This document shows positions 7,972 to 59,500 of a DNA stretch of 64,000 bases, piece by piece; the first letter of the stretch is position 1, and each line of letters begins with the position of its first letter. Origin of the DNA: Hysterangium stoloniferum (taxonomy: Eukaryota > Basidiomycota > Agaricomycetes > Hysterangiales > Hysterangiaceae); the NCBI GenBank assembly GCA_015178975.1, contig WHVD01000063.1:310001-374000 (forward strand), given 5' to 3'. The translations under genes were made by a program, and so were the position numbers. The notes under the pieces were generated by a model, which worked only from the letters and a program-made list of their open reading frames with translations, did not search any database and had not been told where the DNA came from.

Positions 7972-8187
7972 TGTAATCCCGTCGTCAATTGGGATCACTG
8001 GCGGTCACACAAGTTGACAGGACCACGGTGTATTGTCCAGAGCAGAACAAGATACAGGCAAGTGCAGCGTACGGTAAGATCTAAGGTCCTGAAAACTTCC
8101 CGGCTACTTATACCGTAAAACACGGTGATTATGTAATCACGTAAAACTAAAGGGTCCGTGCGTAAGACTGGGGGCACCAGGATTACA
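7972..8187 (-). repeat. Left LTR of the TRIM
   Basis: 216-bp terminal repeat, TGTAATCC...GGATTACA, about 98% identical to the repeat at 8904-9119. It retains the CpG version at each of the four differing sites. CATAT precedes it. Confidence 0.85.
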
Positions 8188-8407
8188 CCCCTCCCCACAC
8201 AAAAACCAACCCACCACCCCAGATTCAACCCTGCTGGACCTCCTCTGTTAATGCGGAGCTTCAGGCGGCGGAGTCTGTATCCCGACCAAAAAAACACACG
8301 GCAGCGACGGAAATTGATACGGCACTAAAAAAACAAACAAAAAAAACAAGGGGATCCAAAATAATGGCTTCTAATCGTCAATTATTCACATAAAACATTT
8401 CTCCAAA

Positions 8408-8745
8408 ATGCAGGTGCTCGACTACGGTGCAGGGCATGCGGGGGCGCCTGTACGTGTGCAGTGTGCAAGGGTGTGCAGCAGCGTGGATGGGTGTGCATGT
8501 GCGCGTATGTGTGGGGGCGCTCGACGACGGTGCAGCGGCGTGCGCGGGTGCGTGGGCGCGCGTACGTGTGCAGGGTGCACAGCGGTGCGGCGATGCGGAT
8601 GTGTGCGCGTGCGAGGGTGCGGCGGTGTGCAGCGCTGCGTATTTGCAGGGGGAGCACTTGCAAGGGTGTGCGGCGGCACGTATACGCGAGGTTGTGAGGC
8701 GTGTACGGGACAAGGGAGTGAACGAGCGGTCTGACGAGTGAACGG
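8408..8745. repeat. GT/GC-rich low-complexity cargo inside the TRIM
   Basis: About 330 bp of irregular GTGTGCG/GTGCGCG runs with many alternating purine-pyrimidine dinucleotides, quite unlike the AT-rich surroundings. It reads open in several frames on both strands simply because stop codons are rare in such composition; I do not call a gene. Alternating GT/GC tracts can adopt Z-DNA. Confidence 0.6.
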
Positions 8746-8903
8746 TGGTGATGCAGATCAGGTTCGACCAGGAAGGTAAGAAGTCGGTTTCTTTTGGAAG
8801 GAATGAATGAGATCCAGTGGAACGAAAGAGCCAAGGGTCTGGAGGGCCAAACACAATGAAGTGCTGGATGAGAAATAACAAATGGCCGGTGTCAAAAAAA
8901 AAG

Positions 8904-9119
8904 TGTAATCCCGTCATCAATTGGGATCACTGGTGGTCACACAAGTTGACAGGACCACGGTGTATTGTCCAGAGCAGAACAAGATACAGGCAAGTGCAGC
9001 ATACGGTAAGATCTAAGGTCCTGAAAACTTCCTGGCTACTTATACCGTAAAACACGGTGATTATGTAATCACGTAAAACTAAAGGGTCCGTGCGTAAGAC
9101 TGGGGGCACCAGGATTACA
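8904..9119 (-). repeat. Right LTR of the TRIM
   Basis: Second 216-bp terminal repeat of the miniature element. CATAT follows it at 9120-9124, completing the target duplication. All four differences from the left copy are TpG or CpA in place of CpG. Confidence 0.85.
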
Positions 9120-9783: not shown

Positions 9784-10300
9784 TGGGGTTTTCCAGGGAC
9801 TGACCACATCAACAGAAGGCAAGGAAAGCAGCTCCAGTCTGCTTGCAGGTGAAAAATGATCCACAGTGCTCTGGTTGTAATGACCAGAACACTGACTGCC
9901 ATTGGAAGTCCAGGCAGGAACCAGGCTGTTGGTAATGTGCACACCTCAAAGCGAGGTGCTCACTGGTCCATAAACCCACAGGGTCATGGTATGGGATGTG
10001 GGTGGTTCAGACAGGCCTGCAGGCTTGGAGGAGGTCTTGGGGTGGATAGCCATGGGCATAGAGAACCAAAACCAGTTGCTTGAAGAGGGCAACTGGATGC
10101 AGGAGACTGTGGTGGAAATGCTCCAGGAACTCTGATTCTGGGTGTTTTTGGTGGAGTATGGCAGGTATGTCTATGTTGAACCACAGATTGGGAGTTCTGA
10201 GAAGCCTGGCAAGGATGAGGACAGGGTACCCGAGGAGGTGGAAGAACTCCGAAAGGAGCCTAAAGAAGTTGGGCAGAAACATAGCCCCATAAATGTAGAT
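9784..10300 (+). pseudogene. Remnant of opposite-strand Cys-cluster cargo gene in G1 copy I
   Basis: Plus strand, antisense to G1 gag-pol. Cysteine spacing CX2CX6C...CX2CX6C is visible (CSGCNDQNTDC and CAHLKARC), followed by a helical region and an acidic tail ending in SPINVD, as in the better copy at 37001-37967. The 5' part is lost at the junction with the G3 LTR. Clearly degraded. Confidence 0.5.
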
Positions 10301-10479
10301 TGAAAAGTAATAATATATATATTTTAAAATAAAAATAAAAACATGAAAAGTGTAAAAGTCCACAGGAAGGCCCGCTAAGACTTGAAGACATGTCAGAAAC
10401 CTGTAAAAGCAAAGAGACATACTGTAGGGTGACAGGGAAAAATGAAGTGAATCCAATGTATACACGGGGTCCATGGATT

Positions 10480-10984
10480 GCAGCTAGAGAGAGGATAGTA
10501 GTCTGGGTTTGAGTGGGTAAGCTGTGTGAAAGTCAGTGACAATCTCTGTGGCATTACCGAGTTCCATGGCCAAAATCCATGAAGTCTCTTTGTCTGTGCC
10601 CTTGTAACCTGCCCACTTGACCAAGTAAAGCAGTTTACAAGTGCGTCAACGCTTATCTATTTTTGAGTCTAAAATTTGTGAGATTTCAAACTTGGGTTCT
10701 CCATCAATAATGACCAGAGGGGGCAGAGATTGCACACAATCTGGGATAGTGTTAGTAGTACACAGTTCTAGCATAGAAACATGAAATACTGGGTGTACCG
10801 CATGCATGCTATCTGGAAGCTGTAAGGTCCATGAAACTGAACCTACTTGTGCTATTATTTCAAACAGACCTAAATATTTTTCAGTGAGTTTCTTTGATGG
10901 ATGGGTAGTCTGGAAGAATTGAGATTTGACAAAAACATGATCACCAATTTTGAAATTCGGTGGTGGAATCTGGTTTTTGCCCAC
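10480..10984 (-). pseudogene. G1 copy I integrase C-terminus and chromodomain region
   Basis: Contains the segment after the integrase core (GDHVFVKSQFF, KYLGLFEIIAQVG, HPVFHVSML) and the start of a chromodomain (FEISQILDSKIDK). It is homologous to 38150-38640 in copy II. Chromodomains in Ty3 elements direct integration to heterochromatin. Fossil. Confidence 0.6.
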
Positions 10985-17780: not shown

Positions 17781-17991
17781 TGCTAAGGAGTGTGCATGGA
17801 GCTTATTGGAGGGTTTCCAGAGAAACCCATGGGAAGGCCAGTAGGACTTAGCTTCAGCTTATAGGCTGCACCCTCATAAGATCGTGTTGTCCAATTTCAG
17901 ATGGGTGGATGGGAATCCTGGGGAATCCAGGAGTGGTTGGTGGGTTGAGAGGTTGGAGGTCAACTGCAGGAATCCCATGGAGGTCAAGGAC

Positions 17992-18425
17992 TGTCACAAC
18001 CATCACAAGTCATAATATTGTCACAAATATTCAAAGGTAATTTTCGACAACTCTTCGACTCATTGAATTCGACTTGACAAACCGGAACATTATTTGACAC
18101 CATTGAATCTCTTTCGACATGTCTCATTTCAATGCCATAAATGATTTCATTATTAGTTCATAATATAGTCATAATGATATGAAGAAAAGCATAAAAGGGC
18201 TACAAAAGGAGTGAGGGAAGTCAGTCGAAATATCTGTAAATTAGTGATATTAATAATCTACTTGTCATAACTTCTTTGACAAATACTTCCATGAGTTCTT
18301 GCGACTGGTAGGTAATAGCCTCTTACTTCATCAACAGGGCAAATATATACTTTGTCGAATGAAGCTTTCAAGTTCGATCAGTAGAATATTATTCGACTTT
18401 ATTGAAGAATAGTCGATTCGTGACA
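17992..18425 (+). repeat. 5' LTR of G4
   Basis: TGTCACAACC...TTCGTGACA, 434 bp, paired with 24268-24697. It keeps more CpG than the 3' copy. The shared cassette found in the other families is not evident here. Confidence 0.8.
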
Positions 18426-18713
18426 GTATATTTTGACTATCAACTGTTGATGAAGCCCAGGATGTGATCTGAGACTACCAAAGCATCGAGTTCCACAGCA
18501 CTTCAATCCGTAGCTTCTATTCCTTTGCCGAGAGTTATTCAGCCATCACAAATTCCAGTTTCTCCTTTAACCAAAACTAGAAGAGCTGTGATGTCTTCAA
18601 CCTGAGAATCTGAAGAAATTCGAGAAGAGCTGATCTTGCCAATTCAAGAAGAATCTAAATCTCCTTTGACACCCTTGCCCGAGTCTCCACCCACCCCCTG
18701 AAGCTGTTATGTC

Positions 18714-19670
18714 TGATGGTGAAACAATGTTACAACATTTCGGAGATGCGCTCAGAAAAGTATTGAAGGACCAGATGTCTTCGAAGGAGCCTGAAATTAC
18801 GGTGAATAAGCCCAAAGAATTTATGGGAGAAGAACCTTTGATGTTAAAGAATTTTATCGCTCAATGTGAAATGGTCTTTTGATCTTGACCAAAATCGTTC
18901 GAATCTGATCAATTGAAAATTACAATGGTAACTTCATATTCCGGAAAATGGCTCAAGAGTGGTGGAAACCTTTTCTATTAAATCCTCCGATTCTGCCTCC
19001 ATCTTTCCTTGTGGATTATCTCGATTTTCTGGATGAATTATATGCTCAGTTTGGAGAAATCGATGCAGAAGGGGAAGCTGAAGAAAAACTCGACAATCTT
19101 CGAATGAAAGCTCATCATCATGTTGCGAAGTATTTGATTCAATTTACAAGTCTCACTGCTCAAACTTGATATGACAAATTTGCTTTACGACAATGATTTT
19201 ATAAAGGACTTCCAAATTGAATTAAGGATGAAATAGTGAAGCTTCAAGTTCAGCCTGAAGGTTTTGCCGAATTGCAAATGGCAGCCATTCAACTCGATTC
19301 CTACTATTGGATGCGAGAGAATGAATGACAATGTGAAGCAGAATCAAGTTTGACTCCGTGAAGATTTGAAAGAAGACAACTGATGACACCCTCGACTTAT
19401 CCTTCGACATCACGAACACCTTCAACTTCAAAACCGACGACTTCAACTTCAAGAACATTTAGGCCTTCGACTCAAGTGAAACCATCTTCGACAATTTTAG
19501 GACCTGATGAACAATTACTTCCTGCCAAATGAGACAGAAGATTTAAAGAAGGGTTATGTATATTATGTGGAGAAAAAGGCCATTCAGTGAGGGATTGCCT
19601 GAAAAGAAAAACTTGTCAAATTGCAAAAGGACAAATTGTTGAAGTTCAAGATTCGACATACTGAACGTTC
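18714..19670 (+). pseudogene. G4 gag region with zinc knuckle
   Basis: Plus-strand pieces begin MSDGETMLQHFGDAL and include a Ty3-type capsid segment (EWWKPFLLNPP, FLDELYAQFGEID, HHVAKYLIQFTSL), ending in a CX2CX4HX4C knuckle (LCGEKGHSVRDC) near 19560. Fossil with multiple breaks. Confidence 0.6.
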
Positions 19671-20990
19671 CGACTGAATATTCTGACTTCTCAGATGTTT
19701 TCAACAAAAAAGAAGCTGAAGCTTTACCTCAACATCGAAGTTATGATCATGCTATCCCATTAGAAGAAGGAACTACTCCACCTAAGGGTCCGATCTATTC
19801 ATTATCCAAGACAGAAATTTAAGTGCTACGAGAATATCTCCAAGAAAACCTTTTGAAGAAATTTATTTGATCATCACAATCTCCTGCTGGTGCAGGGATT
19901 TTATTTGTTAAAAAGAAGGACAGAAGCCTACGACTTTGCATCAATTATCGAGGACTTAATAAAATTACGCAAAAAAACCAATATCCACTTCCTTTAATTC
20001 CTGATCTTTTCAATCGACTTCGAACGGTGAAATATTTTATGAAAATCAATCTCCGAGGTGCTTATAATTTAGTTAGGATTGCTCCAGGTGACAAATGGAA
20101 AACAGCCTTTTAAACTCAATATGGATCTTTCAAATATTTATGCCTTTTGGACTATGCAACACTCCGGCAACTTTTCAACAATTAATGAATGAAATATTTT
20201 CAGATTTACTTGATATTTGGGTAATTATCTATCTTGATGACATACTAATACTTTCCGACAATCTCAAAGAACATATACGACATGTTCAAGAAGTTCTTCA
20301 ACGACTTCAACAAAATCGATTATTTGCAAACCTGAAAAATGCGAATCTCACAAAACCAATGTCGAATTTTTAGGATATGTTATTTCTCCTCAAGGCGTGT
20401 ATATGGATGAAGAAAAAATCAAAGTTATTCAAGATTGGCTTGAACCACAAAAGTCCACAACATTCAATCATTTTTAGGATTCGCAAATTTCTATTGAAGA
20501 TTTATTCCAAGTTATTCTGAAATTGTTTTACTGTTGACTCGACTTACTTGAAAAAAGGTTCAATGGCATTTCGACAAAAAATGTCGACATGCATTTAACT
20601 ATTTGAAAAGATAATTTACTACAGCTCTGATTTTAATTCATTGGAATCCAGATTATAAACCTATACTTGAAACTGATGCTTCTGATCATGCCATAGCTTC
20701 AATATTTTCTATGCAGACCCCCAATAATGAAATTCATCCAGTCGCTTATCATTCAAGAACCCTTTCGACTTCCGAAATCAATTATGACACTTACGATAAA
20801 GAATTATTGGCAATATTCGAATCATTCAAAATTTGGCGACATTATTTCAAAGGAACAAAAGAACCAATTGAAGTTTTAACAGATCACAAAAATCTCAAAT
20901 ATTTTGTGACAACTCGAATTTTGTCCCAACGACAAGCTCGATGGGCAAAATATTTATCTACTTTCAATTTAATTATTCAATTTTGACTGG
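19671..20990 (+). pseudogene. G4 reverse transcriptase and RNase H region
   Basis: RT motifs: [14 protein letters not shown] near 19900, [20 protein letters not shown] near 20135, and the active site [11 protein letters not shown] near 20220. RNase H: ETDASDHAIAS and LTDHKNLKYF near 20660-20900. These define a Ty3-type pol order with RNase H after RT. Confidence 0.7.
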
Positions 20991-21000
20991 GAAAACTAAA

Positions 21001-23226
21001 TTTGAAAGCAGATGTTCTTTCAAGAAGAAATGACATTTATCCTAATGAACCCAACTACTCAAAAAAAAATCTGACTAATCTTCGACTGGTATTTACAAAT
21101 GAACAAATTCAAGCTTCCTTACGTGCAACATATTATCTTCCAATAGCGAGAAAAGCTACTCTTATTATGGATACGGAACAACTATTGAAAGATATATTCA
21201 AAACTCAAAAATAAGATCAATTTACTCTCAACAAAATTTGACAAATTTCTGACAGTACCAAAGAAGATTGGCAAAAGAATGAACAAGACTTTTTATGTTT
21301 CCGAAACAGAATTTACATTCCCGATTATCAAAATCTCTGACTTTGAACTCTTCAATCAAGACATGATCATATTACTGCAGGCCATTTCGGTCAAACGAAA
21401 ATGTATCTGTGAAGGATAGGTCATATAGGAAGCGCGACTAAAGGCTCTAAGCCTAGACCTTAAGCCGCTTTATAATACAATTATTTCATTTTGTTTTATA
21501 TTTTTTATTCTCTCTTTATCATTCATAAATACACTTTATAGTTCGAGAGCCCATGTATGCTTGTGGGCACTCTCGCCCACAAGAAGTATGCGTATGTCAC
21601 AGTAGTAGTCACACGACTAAATTTTAGACACTTTTCAACCCCGACAACCATCACCTGCACACGCAAGTACTGGTTTGGGGTCTTGTCTAAAACAAACTTC
21701 TACTTATCTCTCTTCATTGAGTTATAGTAATTACATTTCGTACTGAAACAGTCAAAATCCGTTATTACTATTTGACTCAACTTCAAGCTCTTGACTAGCA
21801 TGGTAAGAATATCCATCGTAACTAACTTTCTTAGGATATTCTCTCTCTTTCGCGCACTACATACTTTCTCTTGTCTATTCGGCCTTCAGCCCAACTAGCT
21901 AAACAATCGAATCGTACCGTAAGGTCAATCCGTCCTTGTAATTATCTGCTGATCGTACCTTAAAGGTTGATCGCAATCTACATCTTAAACTACTAGTCGA
22001 TTGTATTTCGTACTATTGTTAGTCGATAACAATTGTACATTGAGTGGTAAACTACTCGACCCTTTACAGTATCGAACAATATATCGATATTTCTTTTGGC
22101 CACGACTCTGACAAGATATTCAAGATTTTATTCGATCATGTGTAACATGTACAAAATTGAAAACTCCACGACATCGACCCATTGGATTACTTAAGCAACT
22201 TCTGATCCCCCTTTGACCATGGCATTCGATCTCGATGGATTTTATTGAACAATTACTGACCTCAAATGGTTACGACTCAATACTCCTAATCGTCAATTGA
22301 CTTTCGAAACAAGCAATATTTATTCCAACTCATACTATGATCAATGCTCCCGAACTCGCTCGACTTTTTGTATTACATGTCTTTTCAAAACATGGAGTCC
22401 CAAGTCATGTAACTTCTGATCGAGGATCCGAATTTGTGTCGCATTTCTTTCAATCTCTTGGAACAGCACTTGACATGAAATTACATTTCACTTTGGGATA
22501 CCATCCTGAAGGCGATGGACAAACCGAACAAGTCAATCAAACTCTCGAACAATATTTACAAATATATTCCAATTATCAACAAGACAATTGGGCCGAATTA
22601 CTCCCTTTAGCCAAATTCGCTTATAACAATGCACCTTCTGAAACAACTGGTGAAACACCATTTTTTGCTAATAAGGGTTATCATCCATTGTTAGAAATTC
22701 ACCCCTGAAAAAGATCTAGCTTCTGCTCTAGCTTGCGATTATATGACAGATCTCAAAGCTTGATGTACATAAACATCTCAAATCAAATATCCAGAAAGTG
22801 CAAATACATTATCAAAAATATTCTGACATACATAAATTATTAGGCCCATTTGAAATCATTGCTCAACCAGGATCTCATTCATACACATTAAAACTTCCCA
22901 ATCATATCTCAAAGGAATTCATCCCATCTTTCACGTTTCAATGTTAGAACCATTTTATCCCAATACTTTCCCAATACTTTCCCAAATTGAAAACAACCTC
23001 CTCCACCACCAATTTATGTTGAAGAAGAACCCAAATATGAAATTCGAGAAATTTTGGATTCAAAATTTGATAAAAGATATAAAAATTCATTACAATATTT
23101 AGTTGTTGGTTAGGTTACGAAGGAACAGCCGAAGAAACTTTGTGGTTAGGATCTCAAGATCTCGAACATGCTTTCGACCTTATTGAAGAATTTCATCAAA
23201 AATATCCAAACCTTCCACGACATTAA
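21001..23226 (+). pseudogene. G4 integrase and C-terminal chromodomain-like region
   Basis: Integrase core motifs are visible: SMDFIEQLLTSNGYD near 22235, HVFSKHGVPSHVTSDRGSE near 22375 and GYHPEGDGQTEQVNQ near 22497. The last part (KYEIREILDSKFDKRYK near 23035, then ETLWL) resembles a chromodomain. The G5 solo LTR 21408-22068 splits the N-terminal part. Fossil. Confidence 0.65.
21408..22068 (+). mobile_element. Solo LTR, family G5
   Basis: 661 bp, TGTGAAGG...CCTTTACA (7 of 8 bp inverted termini), with perfect target duplication GTATC (21403-21407 and 22069-22073). Longer and less decayed than the G5 copy at 10996-11402, so it is the younger of the two. Confidence 0.85.
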
Positions 23227-23333
23227 AAATTTCATTCAATTATCTTTCAACACTTATTCTGACACTTATTCAACAAAATCGAAAAAAATTATCGAAACAC
23301 CAAAAACATCAATTATATCAAAATTTTAAGTAT

Positions 23334-24188
23334 CTATAAATCTTCAATTTCCTCCTCTCTTAACTCCGCCATCTTATCAAACCATGCCCCTCTAAATCTC
23401 CCACTATTAACGCTGATATCAGTCTCCTCACTAAAATCACCACGTTCGACCAATTTTTTTGACAGAACCAAAAAATCATCCCTAAATGCTTTCATCTCAC
23501 CAATTAAATCCTCCATTATTTCCTCCATTTTCAACATCCTTTCACTGATTGATTTCATCTCTTTCTCCAAGTGATTATCCGATCGATTTTCTGACCTTCT
23601 CGACCATCCAAAAAAATTTGACAATCTCGACATGATGTTGCGACGGATATTCTTCCTTTGCCCAAGTTTGCAAATTCCCAGACTGTCATCTTCACTCTCA
23701 TTTTCCGATTCTTCGATCATTTTCCAATTCTTTGATCATGTTTCAACTTTTCTTTCAGTTTCAACGCAGTTTTCCAGCTGGCCTATTTATGGTCCAGTAG
23801 CAGGCCTGATGCAATTGATTGCACCGATCGCAATTCAACAATGCATTTGTCTTCTTGCACATGAAATTCATGTTAAAACACATTGTGCAACTAGGAAAAA
23901 ACAAATTAGCAAAAATCGAGAAAAATTCGACAAATCAAAAAATTACAAATTTTCCGATTTTGCCTCAAATTCCCATTGCATTCCAATTCCCTTACAAGTC
24001 GCCTTATTGAACGGTTCTTCGCAATCTACTATGCACTTTTTGGGAATTTCTTCTAAAAAACAACTAATTAACTAATTTAAAGAAATCCCAGAAATTGACT
24101 TACCAACTGCATCAACAACCATATCCCTATCCTCGAAACCCAAAAACTCGGATTCTGATTCAAATTCATCGACTTCTATATCAGACAT
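23334..24188 (-). pseudogene. Opposite-strand cargo gene of G4: acidic start, Cys cluster, coiled coil
   Basis: Minus strand, antisense to G4 gag-pol and lying between pol and the 3' LTR. The first ATG (24188) opens an acidic segment (MSDIEVDEFESESEF). After intron-like GT...AG gaps comes a cysteine block around 23810-23890 with spacing CX2CX6CX8CX2CX6C, fitting the fungal Zn(II)2Cys6 consensus. The block nearest 23334 is a long charged coiled coil (RMLKMEEIMEDLIGEM, LVLSKKLVERGDF). Zn2Cys6 proteins are normally DNA-binding regulators; here function is inferred only. It may itself be decayed. The same architecture occurs in G1. No sequence-level relation between the two could be tested by eye beyond the Cys spacing. 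Confidence 0.5.
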
Positions 24189-24267
24189 TGATTTATGAGG
24201 ACAAAAATAGATGGTGAAAATTTTTTCAAACTCCGACCTCGTGGGCTCGGTCACAAGGGGAGGATAC

Positions 24268-24697
24268 TGTCACAACTGTCACAAGTCACAATATTGTCAC
24301 AAATATTCAAAGGTAATTTTTGACAACTCTTCAACTCATTGAATTCAACTTGACAAACTGGAACATTATTTAACACCATTGAATCTCTTTCGACATGTCT
24401 CATTTCAACATCATAAATGATTTCATTATTAGTTCATAATATAGTCATAATGATATGAAGAAAAGCATAAAAGGGCTATGAAAGGAGCAAGGGAAGTCAG
24501 TCGAAATATCCATAAATTAGTGATATTAATAATCTACTTGTCGTAACTTCTTCGACAAATACTTCTGTGAGTTCTTGCGACTGGTAAAAGCCTCTTACTT
24601 CATCAACAGGGTGAATATATACTTTGTTGAACGAGGCTTTCAAGTTCGATCAGTAGAATATTATTCGACTTTATTGAAGAATAGTTGATTCGTGACA
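24268..24697 (+). repeat. 3' LTR of G4
   Basis: 430 bp, preceded by a purine tract at 24255-24264. Differs from the 5' LTR mostly by loss of CpG. Confidence 0.8.
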
Positions 24698-24758
24698 GGT
24701 TGGGTGGTGATGGGTTGGAGGTTGAGTGATAGATAGGTCAGAGCCCATGGGCTCTGGC

Positions 24759-25599
24759 TGTTAGGATACACACACAGGCCGGGTTTCCGGAGAAACCCGT
24801 GGGATATCCGGTAGGACTTGGCTTCAGCTTATAGGCTGCACCCTCACTAGATCGTGTTGTCCAATTTCAAACGGACGGACGGGGAATCCGGGGAATCCGG
24901 GCGGGGTTCGTGGGTCGTGAGTCGTAAGTCGGAGGTCGTGGGTCATAGGTCAGGGGTCGTGGGTCGTGAGTCGAGTTGGTTGAGAGAGGTAGATGTGCCG
25001 GAGCCCGTGGGCTCCGACTTGTGCGAGCGATGTGAATCGAGTAAGGTTTTAGAGCGGAAAATATTATTAGATTACTGGGGGGAATCTAAGCTAATTTTCT
25101 GACTGGATTGTATGTACAATATCTGCCAGTTTATATAGACCGTGGAATGCATGACATACCAAATCCAGTAATAACGAAACAAGAACTAACAAAACATGAA
25201 ACGGGAATAGTAAACACCAAATTGGTGTTAGGAACGGAACGGAACGGAGCGGAGTCCGAATCATGACAAAGCATAACCCATAACGGGAAATGGAGCGGGA
25301 GCGGAGTCCTAAATCGTGACAGGTCATTTGACTAAAATGGGAACGGGGCTCGATTAGAGCGGTGATGGGATTCTAAGCGGGGACCGGTGACTGATGTGTG
25401 GGACGAAGACGGACATAGACAGAGACGGAGTCCGGGGGAAGTCCGGTGACTGATATGTGGCATAATGAGGTCGAACGTAACGAGTCTTGACATAACGGAG
25501 TCCGGGCGGGAAATCCTATAAACAGACGATTGGTGCTTGTAGCGTGTGGGGGCGTATGGGTTAGTGCCCGGAGTCCGGTGGGATTGTCCGGTCGTAACA
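24759..25599 (-). mobile_element. Young G1 solo LTR inside the old G1 LTR
   Basis: 841 bp, TGTTAGGATAC...GTCGTAACA, with perfect target duplication CTGGC (24754-24758 and 25600-25604). It is CpG-rich and close to the copy at 31574-32420. Contains the shared cassette (24813-24845), a GGTCGTGGGTCGT minisatellite (about 24900-24975), a perfect 18-bp palindrome (24999-25016) and GGAAC pentamer repeats (about 25230). Confidence 0.9.
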
Positions 25600-26193
25600 C
25601 TGGCGAGGTAAATAGCGGTGTGTTTCAAAGAGGAATAGAGTGGAAAATGTACTGAGATTACTAGGGGGAATCTAAGCTGATTTTCTGACTAGATTGTATG
25701 TACAACATCTGCCAGACTATATAGACTGTGGAATGTATGTCATACCAAATCCAGTAATAATAAGATCCAAACTAGTAATCATGAAACGAGATAAGTAAAC
25801 ACCAAATTTGGTGTTAGCAACAGAACAGAACAGAGTGGAGTGGAGCGGAGTCCAAAACATGACAGGTTGTTAGACCATAACTGGAATGGTGCAGGAGTGG
25901 AGTCCAAAATGTGACAGGTCATTTGACCATAACGGGAATGGGGCTCAGTTAGAGAGCTGATGGGTTTTCCAAGCAGAGTCCAATGACCGATGTGTGGGGA
26001 CAGACAGAGATGATGTGCATGGGGTCTGGGTGGGTATTCCAGCGACTGGTACATGAGATAACAAAGGTTGGGCATGGACAGATCTGAAATCTGGGTTCTG
26101 GCAGGTATTCCGGTAAACTGATAACTGGTGGGTAAAGGGTGCAGGTGCATATAGGGTAGTTCCCAGAGTCTGGTGGGTTTTCCAGTTGTAACA

Positions 26194-26628
26194 CTGACCC
26201 ATCATGACTTTCTGCTTCCTTGATTGGCCTTCCAATCATCCATTCTACTTTTTTATTAAACCCTATCATGTATGCTATAGTTCTTCAGTTCAAATATCAA
26301 CTTAGAATACCCCTTTTGTGTTTAAGCCTCTTTGCCTGCTCCTAATACTCTTGAAGACATCATTGGCCAGCCACAACTCTTATCCCCACAACCCTTAGCA
26401 CTTTGGCCTTCTGGTTGATTTAGCTAAGTATCATCTTCAGTCTAAAATTGTACTACTTGCTCTTCTCAAAATACCAGAGCACCCCAATAGTTCATGCAAG
26501 GGAACAACACATAAGTTGAAGCCAAGCTCCACTTGTTTTGTAGAACTGGACCTCCCAGTTGAGTCTGAAATACCTGTCAGCCCTCTGATATCACTCCCCC
26601 TTTGTTCCTTAGACCTTAGATCTTAATA
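26194..26628 (+). mobile_element. Partial LTR, family G3
   Basis: Begins mid-LTR (CTGACCCATCATGAC) directly after the G1 LTR end and runs to GATCTTAATA. Homologous to 9361-9783 (inverted). Shared cassette at 26500-26532. Confidence 0.55.
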
Positions 26629-35500: not shown

Positions 35501-35966
35501 CCCCACACTGACAACTCTTCAGTATTCCTCAGCCTTCTTGTCAAAATAAATCAACAAAACACATTAAAACATTAATCTAATAATGCATCTTTGTACACTA
35601 TATTTTCAGTTCTCTCAATGGTTTAACAGTTGGGGGTCACAGAAATGGTCAATGGTTGCAGAAATGGCAGAAATAGTCAATAGTCCAGAAAGAAACAATG
35701 GTAGGTAAGGAAAGACATTGATTTGATTTTACTGGGATTGATTGACACTTAATTAAGCATTACAAGGATTTTGTATGGATGGCCTCAGATTTAATGGAAT
35801 TGATTGGTAATTTTGCAACAACAGTTGAGAAAGAAACAATGATTGGGAAAGGAATGGAACAACATTGTAACAATTTAACAATATCAAAGCTTTAAGACTG
35901 CTAACAGTTGAATTGATGGTGAATGGTTGAAGCATTGACCTCTGGAACTGAATGACTCTCGATAAA
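35501..35966. other. Unassigned AT-rich sequence with GAAATGG repeats
   Basis: Contains repeated CAGAAATGG/AGAAACAATGG motifs (35640-35850) but no gene. It borders the 3' LTR of G1 copy II. Confidence 0.3.
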
Positions 35967-36789
35967 TGTTAAGGGTACGTACACGGCAGGTTTCTGGGGA
36001 AACCCACGGAAAATCCAGTAGGACTTGGCTTCAGCTTATAGGCTGCACCCTCACGAGATCGTGTTGTCCAATTTCAAACTGGCAGATGGGAATCCCGGTG
36101 AGTCCGGGTGGGGTTCGTGGGTCAAGGTGTCATAGGTCAGAGTTTGTGGGTTGAGAGGTCGGGGAGTCAAGATAAATAAGAGAGTAGATGCATCAGAGCC
36201 CATGGGCTCCGACTAGCGAGAGCGGTGTAATTCAAGGAGGAGTTTAGAGTGGAAAATGTACTAGATTACTGGGGAGAATCTAAGCCAATTTTCTGACTGG
36301 ATTGTATGTACAACATCTGCCAGACTATATAGACTGTGGAATGAATAACATACCAAATCCAGTGATAATGAAATGAAACTAGCAAAACATAAAATGAGAA
36401 TAGTAAACACCAATTTTGGTGTTAGGAACAGGACGGAATGGAGCAAAGTCCGAATTGTGACAAATCATAAACCATAATGGGAAATGGAGCGGGAGTGGAG
36501 TCCGAATTGTGACAGGTCATTTTACTAAAATGGGAATGGGGCTCAGTTAGAGGGATGACGGGTTTTCTGAGCGGGGTCTGGTGACTGATGTGTGGGATGA
36601 GGTCAGACATAGACAGGGATGGAGTCTGGCAGGTATTCCGGTGACTGATACACAATATAACAAAGTTGAATGTGGACAAGTCTGATGTACGGAGTCTGGC
36701 AGGAATTCCAGTAAACTGACAATCGGTGTGTATAGGGCGTGGGTGTGTATAAGTTAGTGCCCAGAGTCCAGTGGGAATTCCAGTTATAA
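35967..36789 (-). repeat. 3' LTR of G1 copy II
   Basis: 823 bp, TGTTAAGGGTAC...GTTATAACA. Shared cassette at 36021-36052. The palindrome at 36194-36211 has one arm CpG-decayed. Intermediate CpG content. Confidence 0.75.
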
Positions 36790-36940
36790 CAGTACCCTCC
36801 CTTTATGCTGAAGTCCCAAAGAGGCTCTAGACCTTGATAAGGTTCTTTCAGCTACACACATGTGTCAAAAGTCATGTCGGTTACATGTATGTGTCAAAGA
36901 GTCACGTGATCTGGAAGATAAGGTTCAGACACGATGAGCC

Positions 36941-36948
36941 TATATAAA
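36941..36948 (+). promoter_or_regulatory. TATA box of the opposite-strand cargo gene in G1 copy II
   Basis: TATATAAA, 53 bp upstream of the ATG at 37001 and followed by a pyrimidine-rich stretch (TTTCTTCTTCTTTATTACCCCC). A CACGTG E-box lies at 36903-36908. The arrangement suggests an independent promoter inside the element, pointing against gag-pol. Confidence 0.5.
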
Positions 36949-37000
36949 GATTTGAAAAAATGAAATTTCTTCTTCTTTATTACCCCCATCTTCATCTTAA

Positions 37001-37967
37001 ATGGGTCCAAAACCAATGCCGTGAAGGCCAATGCTGACCACCAGGCCCTCCACAGGCAACCAATACCAGGCACTGCTCACCACTGCCCAAATTTTGGCAC
37101 AGTGGGAGGAACAATGATGACAGCGAGAGGAGGTGGAAAAAGAAGCCAGGGAGGTCAAGGAGGCCCTGGATAGGGAATACCAGGTGGCCTTGGCCACGGA
37201 GAAAGCGGCTGAGGAGAAAAGGAAGAAGGATGAGGAGGAGGCTGCATGGGTTGCTGCGGAGAGGGCTGCAGTTGCCGTGGGCAAAGTAAGTCCCATAGTT
37301 TCAACTTGTCATTTTTTTTTTGACTGACTTGGCATTTTCAGTGCAAGGCAACAGAGGTCAAATTGGAGTCTGAGGGGGAGCTGGAGAGCCCCCAAAAGGT
37401 AAGTCTCAGGTCCATGGGAAGTCTGGGGAACTAACCATATCAACAGAAGGCAAGGAAGGTGGCACCAGTCTGCCTACCAGTATGGAACGACCCACGGTGT
37501 TCCAGTTGTAATGACCAGAACACTGAATGCAATCGAATCAGAAGTCCAGGTGGGGACTGGGCTGCTACCAGTGCATGCACCTCAAAGTGAGGTGCTCACT
37601 GGTTCATGAGCAGCCCACGGGATCTGTGGCATGGGACATCAGCGGGTCCAATGGGATCTCCAGTTTGGACAAAGTTCTGGGACAGCTCGCCGAGGGCATA
37701 GAGGCCCAGAACAAGTTGCTCCAGAAGAGCAACAAGGTCCATATTGTGATGGCGAATGAACTCCGTGGGCTCCACTCGGAATATTTTAAGTTCCTAGTGG
37801 AGTTCAGCAACTATGTCTATGAGGAGCCACAGGCTGGGAGTTCTGAGGACACTGGTTTGGATGAGGATGGGGTGCCCATGGAGATAGTGGAGCTCCCTGA
37901 GGAGATGGCTGAGGCGGAGAAAGCGGAGGTGGGGAAAAAGGACAGCCCCATAAATGTAGATGATTAA
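37001..37967 (+). pseudogene. Opposite-strand cargo gene of G1: coiled coil, Zn2Cys6-type cluster, acidic tail
   Basis: Plus strand, antisense to G1 gag-pol, between pol and the 3' LTR. Starts MGPKPMP; a charged coiled coil follows (EVKEALDREYQVALATEKAA, then KKDEEEAA). Two canonical introns are visible (37286-37341 and 37399-37446). Next are two CX2CX6C groups (CSSCNDQNTEC; CYQCMHLKVRC), which together fit the Zn(II)2Cys6 pattern; then a helical region (EGIEAQNKLLQKSNKVH) and a strongly acidic tail ending SPINVDD. Zn2Cys6 domains in fungi bind DNA; a role in regulating the element or its host is inference. The copy is broken in a few places. An older relative is at 9784-10300, and a parallel gene of the same architecture is in G4. 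Confidence 0.55.
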
Positions 37968-38149
37968 AATAATAAAACTTGATAATAATTTTTTGAACAT
38001 AAAGGTGAAGCGTGAAAAACATAAGAATCAAAGTCCACAGAAAATCTGCTTGAAAAACATGTCGGAACCTGTAAAAGCAAAGAGAGACATAGGGCAACAG
38101 GGAATAATGAGAATGAGTCCAAATGTAACACAGGGTCTGCAGAGTGTGG

Positions 38150-38908
38150 TCAGAGAGAAGATAGTGGTCCGGGTTTGAGTGGGTAAGCTGTGTGAAAGTC
38201 AGTAACAATTTCCATGGCATTACTGAGTTCTGTGGCTAAAATCCATGAAGTCTCTTCATCAGTGCCCTCATAATCCACCCACTTGACCAAGTAAAGCAGT
38301 TTACAAGTGCATCGACACTTGTCGATTTTCAAATCTAAAATTTGTGAGATTTCAAACTCGGGTTCTCCATCAATAATGACCAGAGGGGGCAGAGATTGCA
38401 CGTGATCCAGGATAGTGTTAGCAGTACAAGGTTCTAACATAGAAACATGAAATACCAGGTGTACCATGCACATGCTATCTGGAAGCCATAGGGTCCAAGA
38501 GACTAAACCTACTTGTGTGATAATTTCAAAAGGACCTAAATATTTTTCAGCAAGCTTTTTTGATGGACAGGTAGTCTGAAAGAATTGAGCTTTGACAAAA
38601 ACATGTGGCAGGATCCAGTGTTTGTCCACTGAAAGTTGATATTGCTCTTGGGTGGACTTTATTGCAGTCTGGAGTTCCTTGTGGAGCTCATGGAGGTCCA
38701 TGGTGAACTCTTGAGTGTGGGCAGAGGTGAGATTTTGTTCTGGATGTACTGTAATATTTGGATTATATCCTTTATTTGCAAAGAATGGGGAAACACCAGT
38801 AATGGCTGAGGGTGCATTGTTGTAAGCAAATTCTGCAAGTGGTAACAAGAATTTCCAATTGTCCTGTTGATAATTGCAATATATGTGGAGATATTGTGGT
38901 TTGTCCAT
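38150..38908 (-). pseudogene. G1 copy II integrase C-terminus and chromodomain
   Basis: QDNWKFLLPLAEFAYNNAPS (integrase end), FEIITQVGLVSWTLWLPDS and HLVFHVSMLEPC, then a chromodomain with FEISQILDLKIDK, LYLVKWVDYEGTDEETSWI. The chromodomain is expected to recognise methylated histone tails and target heterochromatin. Confidence 0.75.
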
Positions 38909-45185: not shown

Positions 45186-47519
45186 ATGGGTCCCAAATGC
45201 AAAGCTGCCAAAGGACCATCTCAACTTCAATCCCCATTGCAACTTTATACCACCCAACCCGAAACCCCAAATCAGCCGACAGCATTAGCTTCCATCGAAG
45301 AAGTTACCAAGGTAGCAAAGGATCCCAACACTCCCAACACTTCCAACAATGAAGCAGAAGAACAGCTGGTGACATCAAAAAAGAAATCTTCTGATGAACC
45401 GACTGAACTGTTGTTTGTCAACTCCATTGTCAAATTTGCTGACTATTTGAAATCCACTGAGGAAAGCAAAGAATCATCCCGCACCAGAGTCAAAGAACCC
45501 GCTGCATTTAAGTCTGACAGTCAAAAAGTCAATTTCATGCTCTCTTATCTCAAGGATACCACTCAGGATTGGTTCGAACCTGGACTATCAGGAATATCTG
45601 ACAAGACACCCATATGGCTCAATGACTGGGACACATTTGTGGAAGAACTGGAAACTAATTTTGGACCTTACGATCAATCCAGTGAAGTGGAAAATGAATT
45701 AATGACACTCAATATGAAGGACAATCAACGAGTCTCCAATTATCTCATCAAGTTCAATACCCTCACCACATGATGTGGATGGGACGATTCCACCCTCAGG
45801 CACCATTTCTATATGGGACTTCTTCCATCACACCTTAAAGACAAGATCTGCAAAGATGAGAAGCCAAAAACTCTCCAACTCATGTGGATTAAAGCTCAGA
45901 CATCCGATGCCCATTATTGGGAATGAAAAGCCAAGTTCTCCCGAGAGAATCTGATGGAACGTTCTCAAAACAACAGGCATCAACTAGCAAGTCTTCCGGC
46001 AATAACTCAGGCAATAACACTGGCAACTCTGGCACTAATACTGGCAAATCTAATTCCAATCGGAAAATAGACAAGAAATCCAACAAAGAAAAACAGTCAA
46101 CTTCCAACAAACCCAACATTTCCCACTTGTTGGGCACTGATGGTAAACTCACCCTGAAGGAGAAACAATGACACATGGATAACGACCTCTGCCTTTTCTG
46201 TGGGAAAAGTGGACACAAGGTTTCTGATTGTACTGTTAAGTCTAACTCTTCCAAGGCCTGCATGGCAACTTCCACTACGACTACAACGTCCAAGGAAAAA
46301 CCTGCCATGGAGTCGAAAAAAAGAGTAAGCAGCCCTCCGGAATCTGCACAGACAGAGGGTTGCATTGACTCTCTCCGTAGTTCCGAGATTATCCATCTCA
46401 ACGTGTCCACTCTCTCTAATACCGACTCATTATTTGTAAAACTCATCTCTGACCTTCTTGGAAATTTAGTGTTCCAAGCTCTGATAGATTCCAGCTCCAC
46501 ACACTGTTTTGTAGATACCACCTTTGCCATGAAACATAATCTGAAACTCCATTCTGTTCCCACAATTTCTTTGCATCTGTTTGATGGCACTAGCAATATG
46601 GCAATTACCCAAGCCTGCAACATGTCTATCTGGTTTTCGTGTGGAACATCCCAGATGGTTACTTTTTTCGTAACACAGTTGGACTCTAGCTGTTCAGTAG
46701 TTCTTGGATACAACTGGCTCACCTGATATGTATAATCTGTTGATTGACTGGGTATTGGGCAGTATTAATTTCCAGATTCCCGACACTTCCGTTCCTCCTG
46801 CAGCATCTTTTCTGGCCAGAGCCTCTTCAGCCTCGACAGCACCTCTGGCTTCTACCGAAACCTCCAAACCTCCAAAAATCTCTCTCATCAATGCTTTGGC
46901 ATTTGTTAGGGCGAGTAAACTGGACAGATCACAGTGTTTTTTGATCACCTTAAAAGTTGATGAAGCGTCTGGACGTTTTGCAACTCCAGAATTATCTGAG
47001 CTAAAAGCTGACCTGGAAGGAGTTCCTGAAAAATACCATGATTTCACGGATATTTTCAGTAAGCAAAAAGCTGACCAGCCTGCACCACATCTTCAACTCT
47101 GTGTCCATTTCAGAGGATTAAATTCCATCACATGGAAAGAAAAGTACCCACTTCCACTCATTACCGACTTACTCGATGCCCCACAGAAAGCTTGGATCTA
47201 CACCAAAATAGACCTTAAACATGCCTATCATTTGGTCTGAATTGCTGAGGGTGACGAATGGAAAACTGCTTTTTGGACTCACTATGGATCCTTTGAATGG
47301 TTGGTTATGCCGTTTGGCCTACCAATGCCCCTTCCACCTTTCAACATTTTGTTAACAATATATTTTCCAACATGCTTGACATATGTGTTATAGTCTATTT
47401 AGACGACATTTTGGTATTTTCCGAGGATCCCGCTCTTCACAACGAACAAGTCTGTGAAGTCTTCCAAAGACTCTGAAAACACGGTCTTTTCGCCAATGGT
47501 AAAAAATGCTACTTTGACA
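45186..47519 (+). pseudogene. G2 gag-pol 5' part
   Basis: Starts MGPKCKAAKGPSQLQ; gag capsid DWFEPGLSGISDKTPIWL, ELETNFGPYDQSS; a CCHC knuckle starting CLFCGKSGHKVSDC near 46190; protease region ALIDSSSTHCFVD near 46480; RT pieces [13 protein letters not shown] near 47205 and the active site [14 protein letters not shown] near 47390. Fossil. Confidence 0.7.
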
Positions 47520-47617
47520 TGGATATGTACAACATTAGCTAGACTATATAGACTGTGGAATGTATGCAATACCAAATCTGGTAATATGTTACAACTGTGT
47601 CACAACCCAATGGTCCC

Positions 47618-53799: not shown

Positions 53800-54357
53800 T
53801 GATGTCAGGGGACAACCTTAAGTTCCCCAAATTCACTCTTGACCTTTCAAAGTCTAGTCTCATAAGTCCAGGATGAGGGCACCTTGTCTTTATCACATTT
53901 TCAAACTCTGCTACACCATTAGTTAGTCATCCACTAGCCAAGGGTTCCTTAGACTTTTCTCTTCAGATTCCCTCTGCTAGGTAAGTAGTACTGTACTCTG
54001 TATGTATATAAATAGTTAGATATAAACTTACTTCTGATTCCCTCTGCTAGTGCCCCAACTCAGTCATAGTGTGAGTTAGTGCAGTCTAGAGAGTTGCCCT
54101 TACATCTGGTCAATTAAGCTAAGTGTTGACCTTTACTTATATCATACTATCTGCTCTGTTCTGAAATACTGGAGCACCCTGACAGTCCATGTGAGGGCAC
54201 AACACATAAGTTGAAGCCAAGCTCCACTACAGTTATAGAGTTGGACCTCCCAACTAGTACAATCTCTATCATCAGCCCCCAATTATGTAACTTGTTTCCC
54301 ATCATCAGCCCTCCAACTAGAGCATTCCCCTTCTTCCTGGCTTAGATCTTAACATCA
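53800..54357 (+). repeat. 3' LTR of G7
   Basis: 558 bp, TGATGTCAGG...TTAACATCA, with unusual TGATGT/ACATCA termini. Contains TATATAAATA near 54005 and the shared cassette at 54191-54225, 130-165 bp before the 3' end. Confidence 0.65.
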
Positions 54358-54548
54358 GCCCTCTGATAATTTTTTCTATACTCACACATTTTTCCTTGAG
54401 ACAAAATACTGATTCATTATAATGATTCATTTATTCTAGGTAGCAATAGGAGGCAACCCCTCTGCCAATCTCTCCCCACTATTTATTGACCCCATATTCT
54501 CATCCCCATGCTCATCCCCACCAGAAATGACCAGAGTCCTTGTATTTG

Positions 54549-54800
54549 GCCAAATTTTCTAAGAGTTCTTTAAACTGATAAATTATTTGAAAATTTTAAG
54601 TTTTAGTAGGATTTTCCAAACTGGAAAATCATATCTGAAAACTTTAAATATTTATATTAGAAAATCTGAGGAAACATTATTAGTCAGAGTTTCTTGATAC
54701 AAATTTTTAAGGTTTTCAGATATGATTTCCCACTTTTGGAAAATCCTACTAAAACTTTAAAATTTTAAACAATTTATCAGTTGAAAAAATTCCTAGAAAA
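54549..54800. repeat. Long imperfect inverted repeat (foldback)
   Basis: Arms of about 90 bp (54549-54640 and 54705-54800), roughly 85% complementary, flank a loop of about 60 bp. Both are AT-rich (TTTTAGTAGGATTTTCC in one arm, its complement in the other). A related but less symmetric sequence lies at 56130-56430. Likely a foldback MITE. Confidence 0.6.
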
Positions 54801-54869
54801 TTTTGCCAAATATTGGGATTTTTGGAGGTTTTCAAACTCCAAAAACATTGGGATGCCTCCAGTGACAAC

Positions 54870-56591: not shown

Positions 56592-59500
56592 TCACCACAT
56601 AATTTTAATTCTCTTGTGTGGGTTACTTTGACTAGAACGGGGCATCATAGCTTCCAGTGAATCGGCCATGGAACCAATATAACGTTCCACAACATCCCAT
56701 CGCAAAACAGCTACATCACCCTTCCATTCCCCTTTCAGACATTTCTGCTCTTCATCGTCAGGGGTTGCAATGATGCGAAGGAATCTGGGGGTCTGTCGGG
56801 TTGAGTGCGAAGCAGATTGTTGCTGAGCTTGGATACTGCTGCGGAGTTTTCTGTGATAACTGTTAGCTATTGGCGCGTATACGGCTGGCCCGAGAACCAT
56901 CTCTAAACTCCCTGTTAGATCATCTACGAGATTTGGGTAAGACACTCGTGTATATCGATCCCGTGTCCCTCCATTCTATAAATATCAGAATAAAGGTTGA
57001 GTGCAATAGGGTTTACGAGGTTTAATACCTACCTGCACCGTGTAAAAGAATTCGGGCGTAACAGAAGTGATGGCATCTCGCCATTTCTGAGAATTGAGGG
57101 TTGGTGAAACATTTCCTTGCACTGCAAGAATTATCAGCTCCTTCGTCTCCTTGTCTTGGAGGGTACACAACACGTCGGGGGCCATGTGGTTATCTGGAAA
57201 AAGAAAGGGCTTTCCATCTGGATCATGCAAGAAAGCGAGAACGTCTTCAGGGGAATTAGCCTTGAGACCCAAGCGATCAGAAGTGCCTGTCTTCCACGAT
57301 ACCGGGGAGCATTGCATTATGTCATCAGCCCCACGCTTCAGCGCGACTAAGGTAACCTTCCTCGACCCTAATGACTCGCTACAGTGGAAGGCGTGCGAGA
57401 GAGGTTTGAACTTCCCCCCAAAAGTCTCCATGAGCACGAGAAGGATCGCCTGTGCAAACATATATCCACGTAACGAGGCGCTACGAGCACTGCGAAATGC
57501 ATTGGTCATCCATGTCTCCCTGATCGCGTGATTGTGCTTTTGGAAAACCGAGCTGAGGGAGAGAACTACCAATGGTTCGGAAATGTATACAGGATAGTTC
57601 ATATTACGTTTGAATTGCCAAGGGTTCGTCATCGTGTCCAAAAAACCTATGCCATACCCAATTATGTCGTGCATATGGCCTTCGATGGGGATGTACGTAA
57701 GTTCACTTCCTAAAGTCCACCGCATAAGAACGTCAACTAAGTTTCCTAACAATTCCTCTCCTATCAAATATGCGGTCAGTCCATACATCAGTAAAAAATA
57801 TATCACACTTACTGTTCTGTTCTTTGCAAATGTGGTTCAAATCACAAATTGGGCTATAATGGCCGATCATCGAGGACATCTCAAGGGAAATGGGGGGTTC
57901 ACCAGCCTCCAGTTCGATTGTGTCAGTGAGTTTGAATCCAGTCAACTGCTCAACGAACGAGGTGAAGACACGGTGACGCGGAACATTTTCGAAGCAGAGG
58001 AAAAGCTCTATGAGGCTAGCTGTAAGGCGGTGACTACAATATGAACGATGAGAATGAATCTTGTAGGGTCAAATGATAGACATACCGGCCAGAAAACCAG
58101 TACATTATACGCTTCAATAATAGTCGATCTGAGTCATTTTCGGAGAGAGTGAGGTATCGGCGAATATAATCCTCTTGAGAAGAATCACCCCTCGTGAAAC
58201 GCCCAATATCAGTGAAGACTAGGGGCCGTGCAAACCTGTCTGTCCGTTTTGCGGAAAGAGAACCTGCGGTATTCTGCACCATTTCCATCGACAGACCCGT
58301 TCCCGAAAGAATAATCCCAGATATAATTTCAGAGTCCAAAAAAAAACTATACATTTCATGAAGAATGGGGCGCAGATCTGACCCAGTGTCGGAGCGAAAG
58401 TACTCTTTCAAATGGTCGGCAGCCACCTGTGCCTCGTCGATCACGGCGAATAGAGGTGTGAATCCCGCTGGAAACAAATCTTTCCTCTTATTCATAAACT
58501 GATTTAGCATGGAATTGATACTTGTGATCATGATATCAGTGTCAGCGTGCCGAATGGTTTGAAGGATTGTGACGAAGAGGTCGTCACCCTTCTGGGACAA
58601 GCGGGGTGGCAAAGCTTGAGCAAGAACCCATCGCCGTCGAGCTACCGTAGCATCTGTGTTAAGAGGAAGGTATTTCACAAGTTGCTTCAGGACGAAGACG
58701 CGCGCAAACAACAACATTGCGAAGACGCGGTCTGCAGATTCAGCGTTTTTGCTATGCCCATCACTGTCTCCTGTGTTCCAGGTGCTCATAGTTTGCAACA
58801 TTTTCGTCGCTACATTGAAGTCGTTGGAGCCAGATGCTGGGCCTCCTGTGTTCTTGCACGAAATATAAAGGCCCCAATTCCAGCAAAGACCGTCAAGTGA
58901 AAGGCGTGTTTTACCCGAGCCAGAAACGCCGAATAGATGGCTGGAAAGAGCAAGATTAGGATGAGCTGTTTTTACAATTGTGCGGATGCCACGAACACTG
59001 TATCATCGATGAACAATTTTTCGATCCGCTTGTTGTCCACATGCCTGCCGAGGTCGTGAAGGAGAAGAATTGGATCAAGGGGCAGATAAACGCCGAGGTC
59101 TGTAACTTTGTCGTGACGTTGGATTGAGTCGAGATATCCGTCCAATTTCCCAATAGCCAAGTATTTAATGTAGTTCTCAAAGTCTTTAAACGCGGCGGCA
59201 GTCTTCCTTTCGAGGGTGAGACGTGGGGATAATTCTAATGAAAACTGTTCACAACCATCCACACTAAAAAGTACACGACCTACCATCGGCTGCATTTCTT
59301 ATGCGTGTCCCGGCAAGCGGGGTGTGCGGTGGTTGGCTGTGGTCTGATTGGAGCATCTCTAATAAGAGCGATGAGGACAAATGGCGCGAGAGTAATAAAC
59401 TAGAAACTTACCAAGGCTCCGAATCTCTGAAAACGATTCTTTTTGTAAACATTCGCCCAATAAGTTGAAGAGCTCATCGTTCTCCTCGATACACTTGCGA

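Follow-up and report, generated by a model that had tools for sequence, protein, structure and literature searches.

Antisense open reading frames lying between pol and the 3' LTR have been described in plant Ty3 elements and in the fungal element Boty, according to the excerpted text of PMC7264820. The plant antisense frames (aORFs) named in these excerpts include Grande gene23, RIRE2, Retand and PvRetro13, of which PvRetro13 has an SMC domain and Retand a transposase 28 domain; the excerpts mention no zinc cluster (PMC7264820), whereas the genes of the two families described here, G1 and G2, have a cysteine cluster. The same text urges looking for possible spliced antisense transcripts (PMC7264820). 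Boty occurs in Botrytis cinerea and Sclerotinia sclerotiorum, as stated in extracts of three papers (PMC7264820; PMC8365987; PMC4227169). Its additional antisense gene, named brtn, occupies the interval between pol and the 3' LTR of Boty/BcGypsy1 (PMC7264820, in part; a title cited in PMC8365987), and the gag-pol of Boty/BcGypsy1 carries a chromodomain, according to the extract of PMC4227169. The geometry, antisense and between pol and the 3' LTR, is already known, fungi included. An earlier sequence-only reading of the present locus did not recognise a spliced, putatively DNA-binding cargo gene in fungal elements as described. That fungal elements lack a described antisense cargo gene is not supported, brtn being one in the extracts of PMC7264820, PMC8365987 and PMC4227169; brtn may or may not be spliced or DNA-binding.

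G1 and G2, like Boty/BcGypsy1 as described in these extracts, are Ty3-type elements that carry an antisense gene in the interval from pol to the 3' LTR. The gag-pol of G1 shows a further likeness: the pol end of its copy B matches Chromo close to the threshold (22.7 bits against a cut-off of 25.1), compared with the chromodomain reported in the extract of PMC4227169. Compared by description only, brtn may share splicing or a cysteine cluster with the G1 gene. A spliced cysteine-cluster antisense gene in two Ty3 families seems to be a new variant; among the matches listed in a search of open-licence PMC papers, none reports a fungal Ty3 element whose antisense gene is spliced or encodes a zinc cluster, or a permuted Zn2Cys6 cluster. 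Our main reading, to which a probability of roughly 0.6 is given, is that this is an accessory gene of Ty3 retrotransposons, antisense and twice spliced, encoding a Cys-cluster protein that is likely a regulator of the element.

In the window (the whole 64-kb stretch of DNA analysed here), a three-exon gene at 37001-37967 on the plus strand lies opposite to gag-pol of copy B of the Ty3 element G1 (G1-B). Its slot extends from the end of pol (38150) to the 3' LTR (35964-36791). The position and coordinates given by the sequence-only reading hold. The features are as follows.

35964-36791, minus strand: 3' LTR of G1-B, TGTTAT...TAACA on the minus strand, with LTR family copies
36792-36806, minus strand: polypurine tract of G1-B, AAAGGGAGGGTAC, directly inside the 3' LTR
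36903 and 36941-36948, plus strand: CACGTG and TATATAAA, putative promoter motifs, as motif matches only
37001-37285, plus strand: antisense exon 1 (285 nt), ATG at 37001, TGA at codons 8, 39 and 40
37286-37341, plus strand: predicted antisense intron 1 (56 bp), GTAAGT..CTGAC..CAG
37342-37398, plus strand: antisense exon 2 (57 nt)
37399-37446, plus strand: predicted antisense intron 2 (48 bp), GTAAGT..CTAAC..CAG
37447-37967, plus strand: antisense exon 3, with Cys cluster (37498-37595), helical segment, acidic tail and stop
38150-38908, minus strand: C-terminal part of pol in G1-B, matching SH3_Tf2-1 and, near the threshold, Chromo

The end of pol is 182 bp from the stop of the antisense gene, and AATAAA follows just past that stop, at 37971. 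The two canonical short introns noticed earlier were recovered, both GTAAGT...AG and both predicted from consensus; their size, like the type of element, looks fungal. Exons 1 and 2 are each divisible by three, and both introns are in phase 0. The 56 nt of intron 1 would put the reading out of frame and intron 2 contains a stop, so the long frame exists only if the transcript is spliced. The pattern GTAAGT..CTRAY..YAG was found three times on the plus strand of the window (two of them being these introns) and twice on the minus strand, with about 1.0 expected per strand, and two such patterns less than 200 bp apart were seen in 0 of 300 first-order Markov resamples. As for the promoter signals of its own that had been ascribed to the gene, the positions of CACGTG and TATATAAA stand, as does an ATG 53 bp after the TATATAAA box, at 37001; these are consensus motifs in one copy only, the corresponding part being missing from copy A. 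On the plus strand of the window, CACGTG occurs seven times, which is unremarkable, and TATATAAA twice.

Exon 1, for which a coiled coil had been proposed, is rich in E, A and K by composition, a basic KKARK stretch precedes the Cys cluster, and the last 50 residues carry a net charge of -14, in agreement with the acidic tail proposed earlier. The G1-B antisense gene is dead, with three in-frame TGA codons and a frameshift inside the Cys cluster that places the triads at 37498-37530 and 37563-37595 in different frames; these lesions had gone unmentioned in the earlier reading. The gene region is CpG-depleted (observed/expected 0.28), and the TGA codons could have arisen from CGA via CpG decay. 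A single-sequence AlphaFold prediction of the 136-residue part after the frameshift gave a mean pLDDT of 62.8, with values of 64-94 in the helix blocks, and residues 31-89 were predicted as one long helix; the stretch holding the second Cys triad, the sole triad in this construct, had a pLDDT below 50. With exon 3, a profile search of the PDB gave no credible match (best E 0.045). NCBIfam returned nothing above cut-off, and in PHROGs there was a single weak match (E 0.037), to a family of unknown function. No relatives were found in IMG/VR (searched with gene and RT), GTDB (RT) or PLSDB (a piece of the gene), collections that are not fungal, so that their silence carries little weight.

That the antisense gene belongs to the G1 element is supported by a second copy, G1-A, with the following antisense remnant.

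9796-10303, plus strand: exon 3 and the 3' end of intron 2 of the antisense gene in G1-A, with 9796-10258 found by DNA search

One continuous alignment of the two copies, with 74.5% identity, joins 9796-10939 with 37427-38605 and runs from intron 2 through exon 3 to the pol end. The 3' end of intron 2 is retained in G1-A with a branch-like CTGAC and AG; this copy has lost antisense exons 1-2 and the 3' LTR and still has the junction with pol. A single copy (G1-B) shows exons 1-2 and the promoter motifs, and exon 3 is known from two. The antisense gene is present in both of the G1 copies in the 64-kb window that retain the pol end, and a G1-like plus-strand fragment at 46139-47523 ends short of the antisense gene region. 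A search of the host genome for further G1 copies had been suggested earlier; the window itself yielded this second copy with the antisense gene at the same junction.

The LTR at 35964-36791 is aligned by 17800-17991, 24698-24757 and 25600-26196, and for each piece none of 300 shuffles scored as high. Since all three align to this LTR, the 5' LTR of G1-A belongs to the same family; it consists of three collinear pieces, interrupted by G2 and by a solo LTR. The solo LTR (24759-25599, with CTGGC on both sides) was inserted in the G1-A 5' LTR, as G2 was. The origin of the LTR at 35964 from another element was considered and rejected, as the purine tract abuts the LTR and resembles the G2 tract.

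The comparison of the two G1 copies supports the conclusion that the antisense gene was a protein gene under selection. Over 152 codons of exon 3, the differences at codon positions 1, 2 and 3 number 45, 32 and 68 (chi-square p 4e-5), and 0 of 20,000 permutations were equally uneven. Between the copies, exon 3 has a dN/dS of 0.22 when read in frame, compared with 0.63 and 1.29 for the two alternative frames; four pieces of pol and gag gave dN/dS of 0.32-0.44 in their lowest-ratio frames. The true value is probably lower than 0.22, as both copies would have decayed since insertion. Some alignment gaps (3, 6 and 15 nt) leave the frame intact, two others (5 and 1 nt) disrupt it, and one of 4 nt lies at the stop codon. 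Conservation like that of the element's own proteins, which is asked of aORFs, is seen in dN/dS, and DNA identity is below that of pol. CpG decay as the source of the codon pattern was rejected, the CpG type accounting for 22 of 291 differences in the 1.2-kb alignment, which is too few. The idea that the antisense gene is a chance motif was likewise rejected on the codon pattern and on the statistics of intron patterns and paired Cys. The earlier proposal of an antisense, intron-bearing gene of the element, with a dN/dS below 1 as its suggested check, is supported by the second copy at the same junction, the codon-position signal and the ratio for exon 3.

In 120-column windows, identity between the copies is 0.58-0.79 in the gene, with a peak over the Cys cluster, 0.59-0.66 in the spacer to pol, and 0.82-0.88 in the adjoining pol, with the step between pol and the antisense gene or spacer near 38086-38143 (G1-B). 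Two possible causes of this drop are that the gene evolved faster and that recombination or module exchange gave it a history of its own. The same contrast in identity would fit a host zinc-cluster gene captured by transduction or insertion, without a role for the element, as would the gene-like anatomy of introns, start, stop and AATAAA. We consider such a capture unlikely, since the two G1 copies share the junction at which the gene sits, G2 has its gene in the corresponding slot, coding constraint is seen between the G1 copies, and the cluster order differs from the Gal4-type profile.

The reading as an accessory gene of the element draws on a second Ty3 family in the window, in which the layout is alike; this goes beyond what had been claimed from the sequence alone. 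The features of G2 are as follows.

17992-24697, plus strand: Ty3 element G2, nested in the 5' LTR of G1-A
24104-24188, minus strand: antisense exon 1 (85 nt), ATG at 24188
24053-24103, minus strand: probable antisense intron 1 (51 bp), GTAAGT..TAG
23947-24052, minus strand: antisense exon 2 (106 nt)
23891-23946, minus strand: probable antisense intron 2 (56 bp), GTAATT..GCTAAT..TAG
23334-23890, minus strand: antisense exon 3, with Cys cluster (23889-23800), TGA (23763-23761), a frame change and the end at 23334

The LTRs of G2 (17992-18425 and 24268-24697) are 92.7% identical, and the 3' LTR, starting at 24268 with TGTCAC, is preceded by AAGGGGAGGATAC, similar to the tract of G1-B. The RT piece of G2 shares 52% identity with that of G1. 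The last pol-like frame of G2 ends at 23226, and a search with 48 residues from this end of pol found no chromodomain. The G2 antisense gene was recognised by a scan of both strands of the whole window for two CX2CX6C groups within 33-100 nt. Two such sites were observed against 0.005 expected, and two sites were reached in 0 of 200 Markov resamples; of these two, G1-B is not an independent case, as the spacing was taken from it, and G1-A was left out of the count because its second triad contains a stop. The second of the two sites (23889-23800, minus strand) falls within the antisense slot of G2. The gene starts 79 bp from the 3' LTR, and no TATA box is visible at its start. With the two introns removed, the frame is open from the ATG through the cluster to the TGA at 23763-23761; these introns were placed to hold the frame open, and neither fits the strict GTAAGT..CTRAY..YAG pattern. 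The C-terminal part continues to 23334 in a different frame. The antisense copies of G1-A, G1-B and G2 are all dead. Antisense placement between pol and the 3' LTR, the mark of an aORF-3R, was found in both G1-B and G2.

A third Ty3 family, G3 (about 50.9-53.8 kb), provides the comparison without the gene. Its pol frame runs to about 53700 and, after a stop, reaches a purine tract that immediately precedes TGATGTCAGGGG at 53800; the identity of this LTR rests on the purine tract, a second LTR copy not being found in the window. With pol extending as far as this tract, no space is left for an antisense gene. In the window, two of the three Ty3 families with a readable pol end carry the gene.

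The cluster of the Gal4-type Zn2Cys6 proteins consists of C-X2-C-X6-C, a short spacer and a second C-X2-C-X6-C. This spacing is present in G1-A (with one stop inside), in G2, and in G1-B across the frameshift. The spacing noted earlier for G1-B (37498-37530 and 37563-37595) is confirmed, and the fit to the Gal4-type cluster holds to that extent; the suggested Zn2Cys6 profile search gave native scores below the cut-off of 21 bits for Pfam Zn_clus (PF00172) in both G1 copies (16.2 and 13.5 for whole proteins, 20.2 and 14.9 for pieces), with the halves in exchanged order. The first triad of G1 corresponds to positions 16-35 of the profile and the second to positions 2-18. When the triads were exchanged, both copies matched Zn_clus in one stretch with 26.5 and 24.7 bits, above the cut-off. 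Shuffles of the exchanged pieces with Cys fixed matched in 5 of 16 cases, the best with 19.1 bits, and none of the 16 reached 21; since only one of the four native scores lies above this best shuffle, a native Zn_clus match alone proves little. Against the PDB, the exchanged piece gave only three matches, all GAL4 and all weak (E 0.77-3.8). An exchanged order of the halves in G1, compared with the Gal4-type profile, is supported by these profile scores. G1 is like the Gal4-type proteins in its two C-X2-C-X6-C groups, the predicted helix behind the cluster and the acidic tail, but differs from them in the exchanged halves and the native score below the Pfam cut-off, and G2 differs in having no Zn_clus match.

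For G2, the native cluster did not match Zn_clus, and the two exchanged versions gave no match and 13.8 bits, so an exchanged order is not supported by the profile. The second triad of G2 matches PHD_2 better than Zn_clus (20.1 bits, below the cut-off of 28). The similarity between the G1 and G2 proteins is carried by the cysteines. When all residues were shuffled, 2 and 27 of 5000 sequences scored as high, compared with 276 and 804 of 5000 when Cys was fixed. The best local alignment of G1-A with G2 is out of register, and hhalign paired all six Cys with P 0.0084 and a probability of 4.8%. Common descent of the G1 and G2 antisense genes is likely but not proven by these comparisons. A Gag zinc knuckle, C-X2-C-X4-H-X4-C, was rejected, as its spacing does not fit.

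The six Cys could belong to another zinc fold, for example PHD-like or treble-clef-like, with the G1 and G2 genes acquired independently. The PHD_2 match of G2 points this way, as do the lack of significant likeness in the non-Cys residues and the differing intron phases (both phase 0 in G1; exons of 85 and 106 nt in G2). We regard this as improbable, since the C-X2-C that would complete a PHD finger is missing after the second triad in the G1 and G2 sequences, the Zn_clus halves are matched by both G1 copies, and two C-X2-C-X6-C groups lie in the same slot. That the region acts via antisense RNA, as dsRNA control of the element with the protein incidental, has very little in its favour, for although a dsRNA role of antisense transcription is discussed for plant elements in the excerpts of PMC7264820 and every copy in the window is broken, the low dN/dS and the codon-position pattern point to translation, and paired Cys triads occupy the slot in two families.

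In the favoured explanation, a regulator encoded by the retrotransposon itself, transcription would start near the 3' LTR and head toward the pol end, and the transcript, judging by the consensus signals, would be spliced twice. The introns would persist as the genomic RNA is the opposite strand, in which the splice sites are read backwards; survival of introns through antisense placing is established reasoning. The G1 product would be a protein of about 290 residues with a charged N-terminal part, a six-Cys cluster with exchanged halves, a long helix and an acidic tail, and the cluster would presumably bind zinc. An element-borne nuclear regulator is suggested by the Cys cluster together with the preceding KKARK, the helix that follows and the acidic tail. 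The role thought most likely is that of a regulator in the nucleus, probably a dimer, that would bind DNA or chromatin and whose target may be the element itself, at LTR transcription or integration, by analogy with the accessory factors proposed for the plant antisense ORFs. A further-reaching version is put forward only tentatively: an ancient spliced antisense gene, common to several Ty3 families, might encode a Zn2Cys6 protein in circularly permuted form, of a regulator lineage that is carried by the elements and distinct from the host Gal4-type factors, with introns long kept through the antisense position and with exchange between elements separately from pol.

Should the arrangement hold throughout the genome, a spliced regulator would be part of what these LTR retrotransposons carry. 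What antisense accessory ORFs do is likewise an open question for plants, according to the excerpts of PMC7264820. One window with two families that have the gene and one without it offers a ready comparison, and the exchanged zinc-cluster halves of G1, if true, would be a structural novelty with respect to Gal4.

Other features of the window were also recorded. A TRIM-like miniature LTR element lies at 7972-9119, with a 226-nt terminal repeat pair that is 97% identical and CATAT on both sides. At 54543-54812 there is an imperfect inverted repeat with arms of 78 nt at 88% identity, 114 nt apart, possibly a hairpin or MITE. The minus strand at 56985-58801 holds a pair of long open frames, of 273 and 255 aa, for which no Pfam match was listed at E 10; a 52-nt intron-like pattern from 57812 adjoins them, and they possibly form one spliced host gene.
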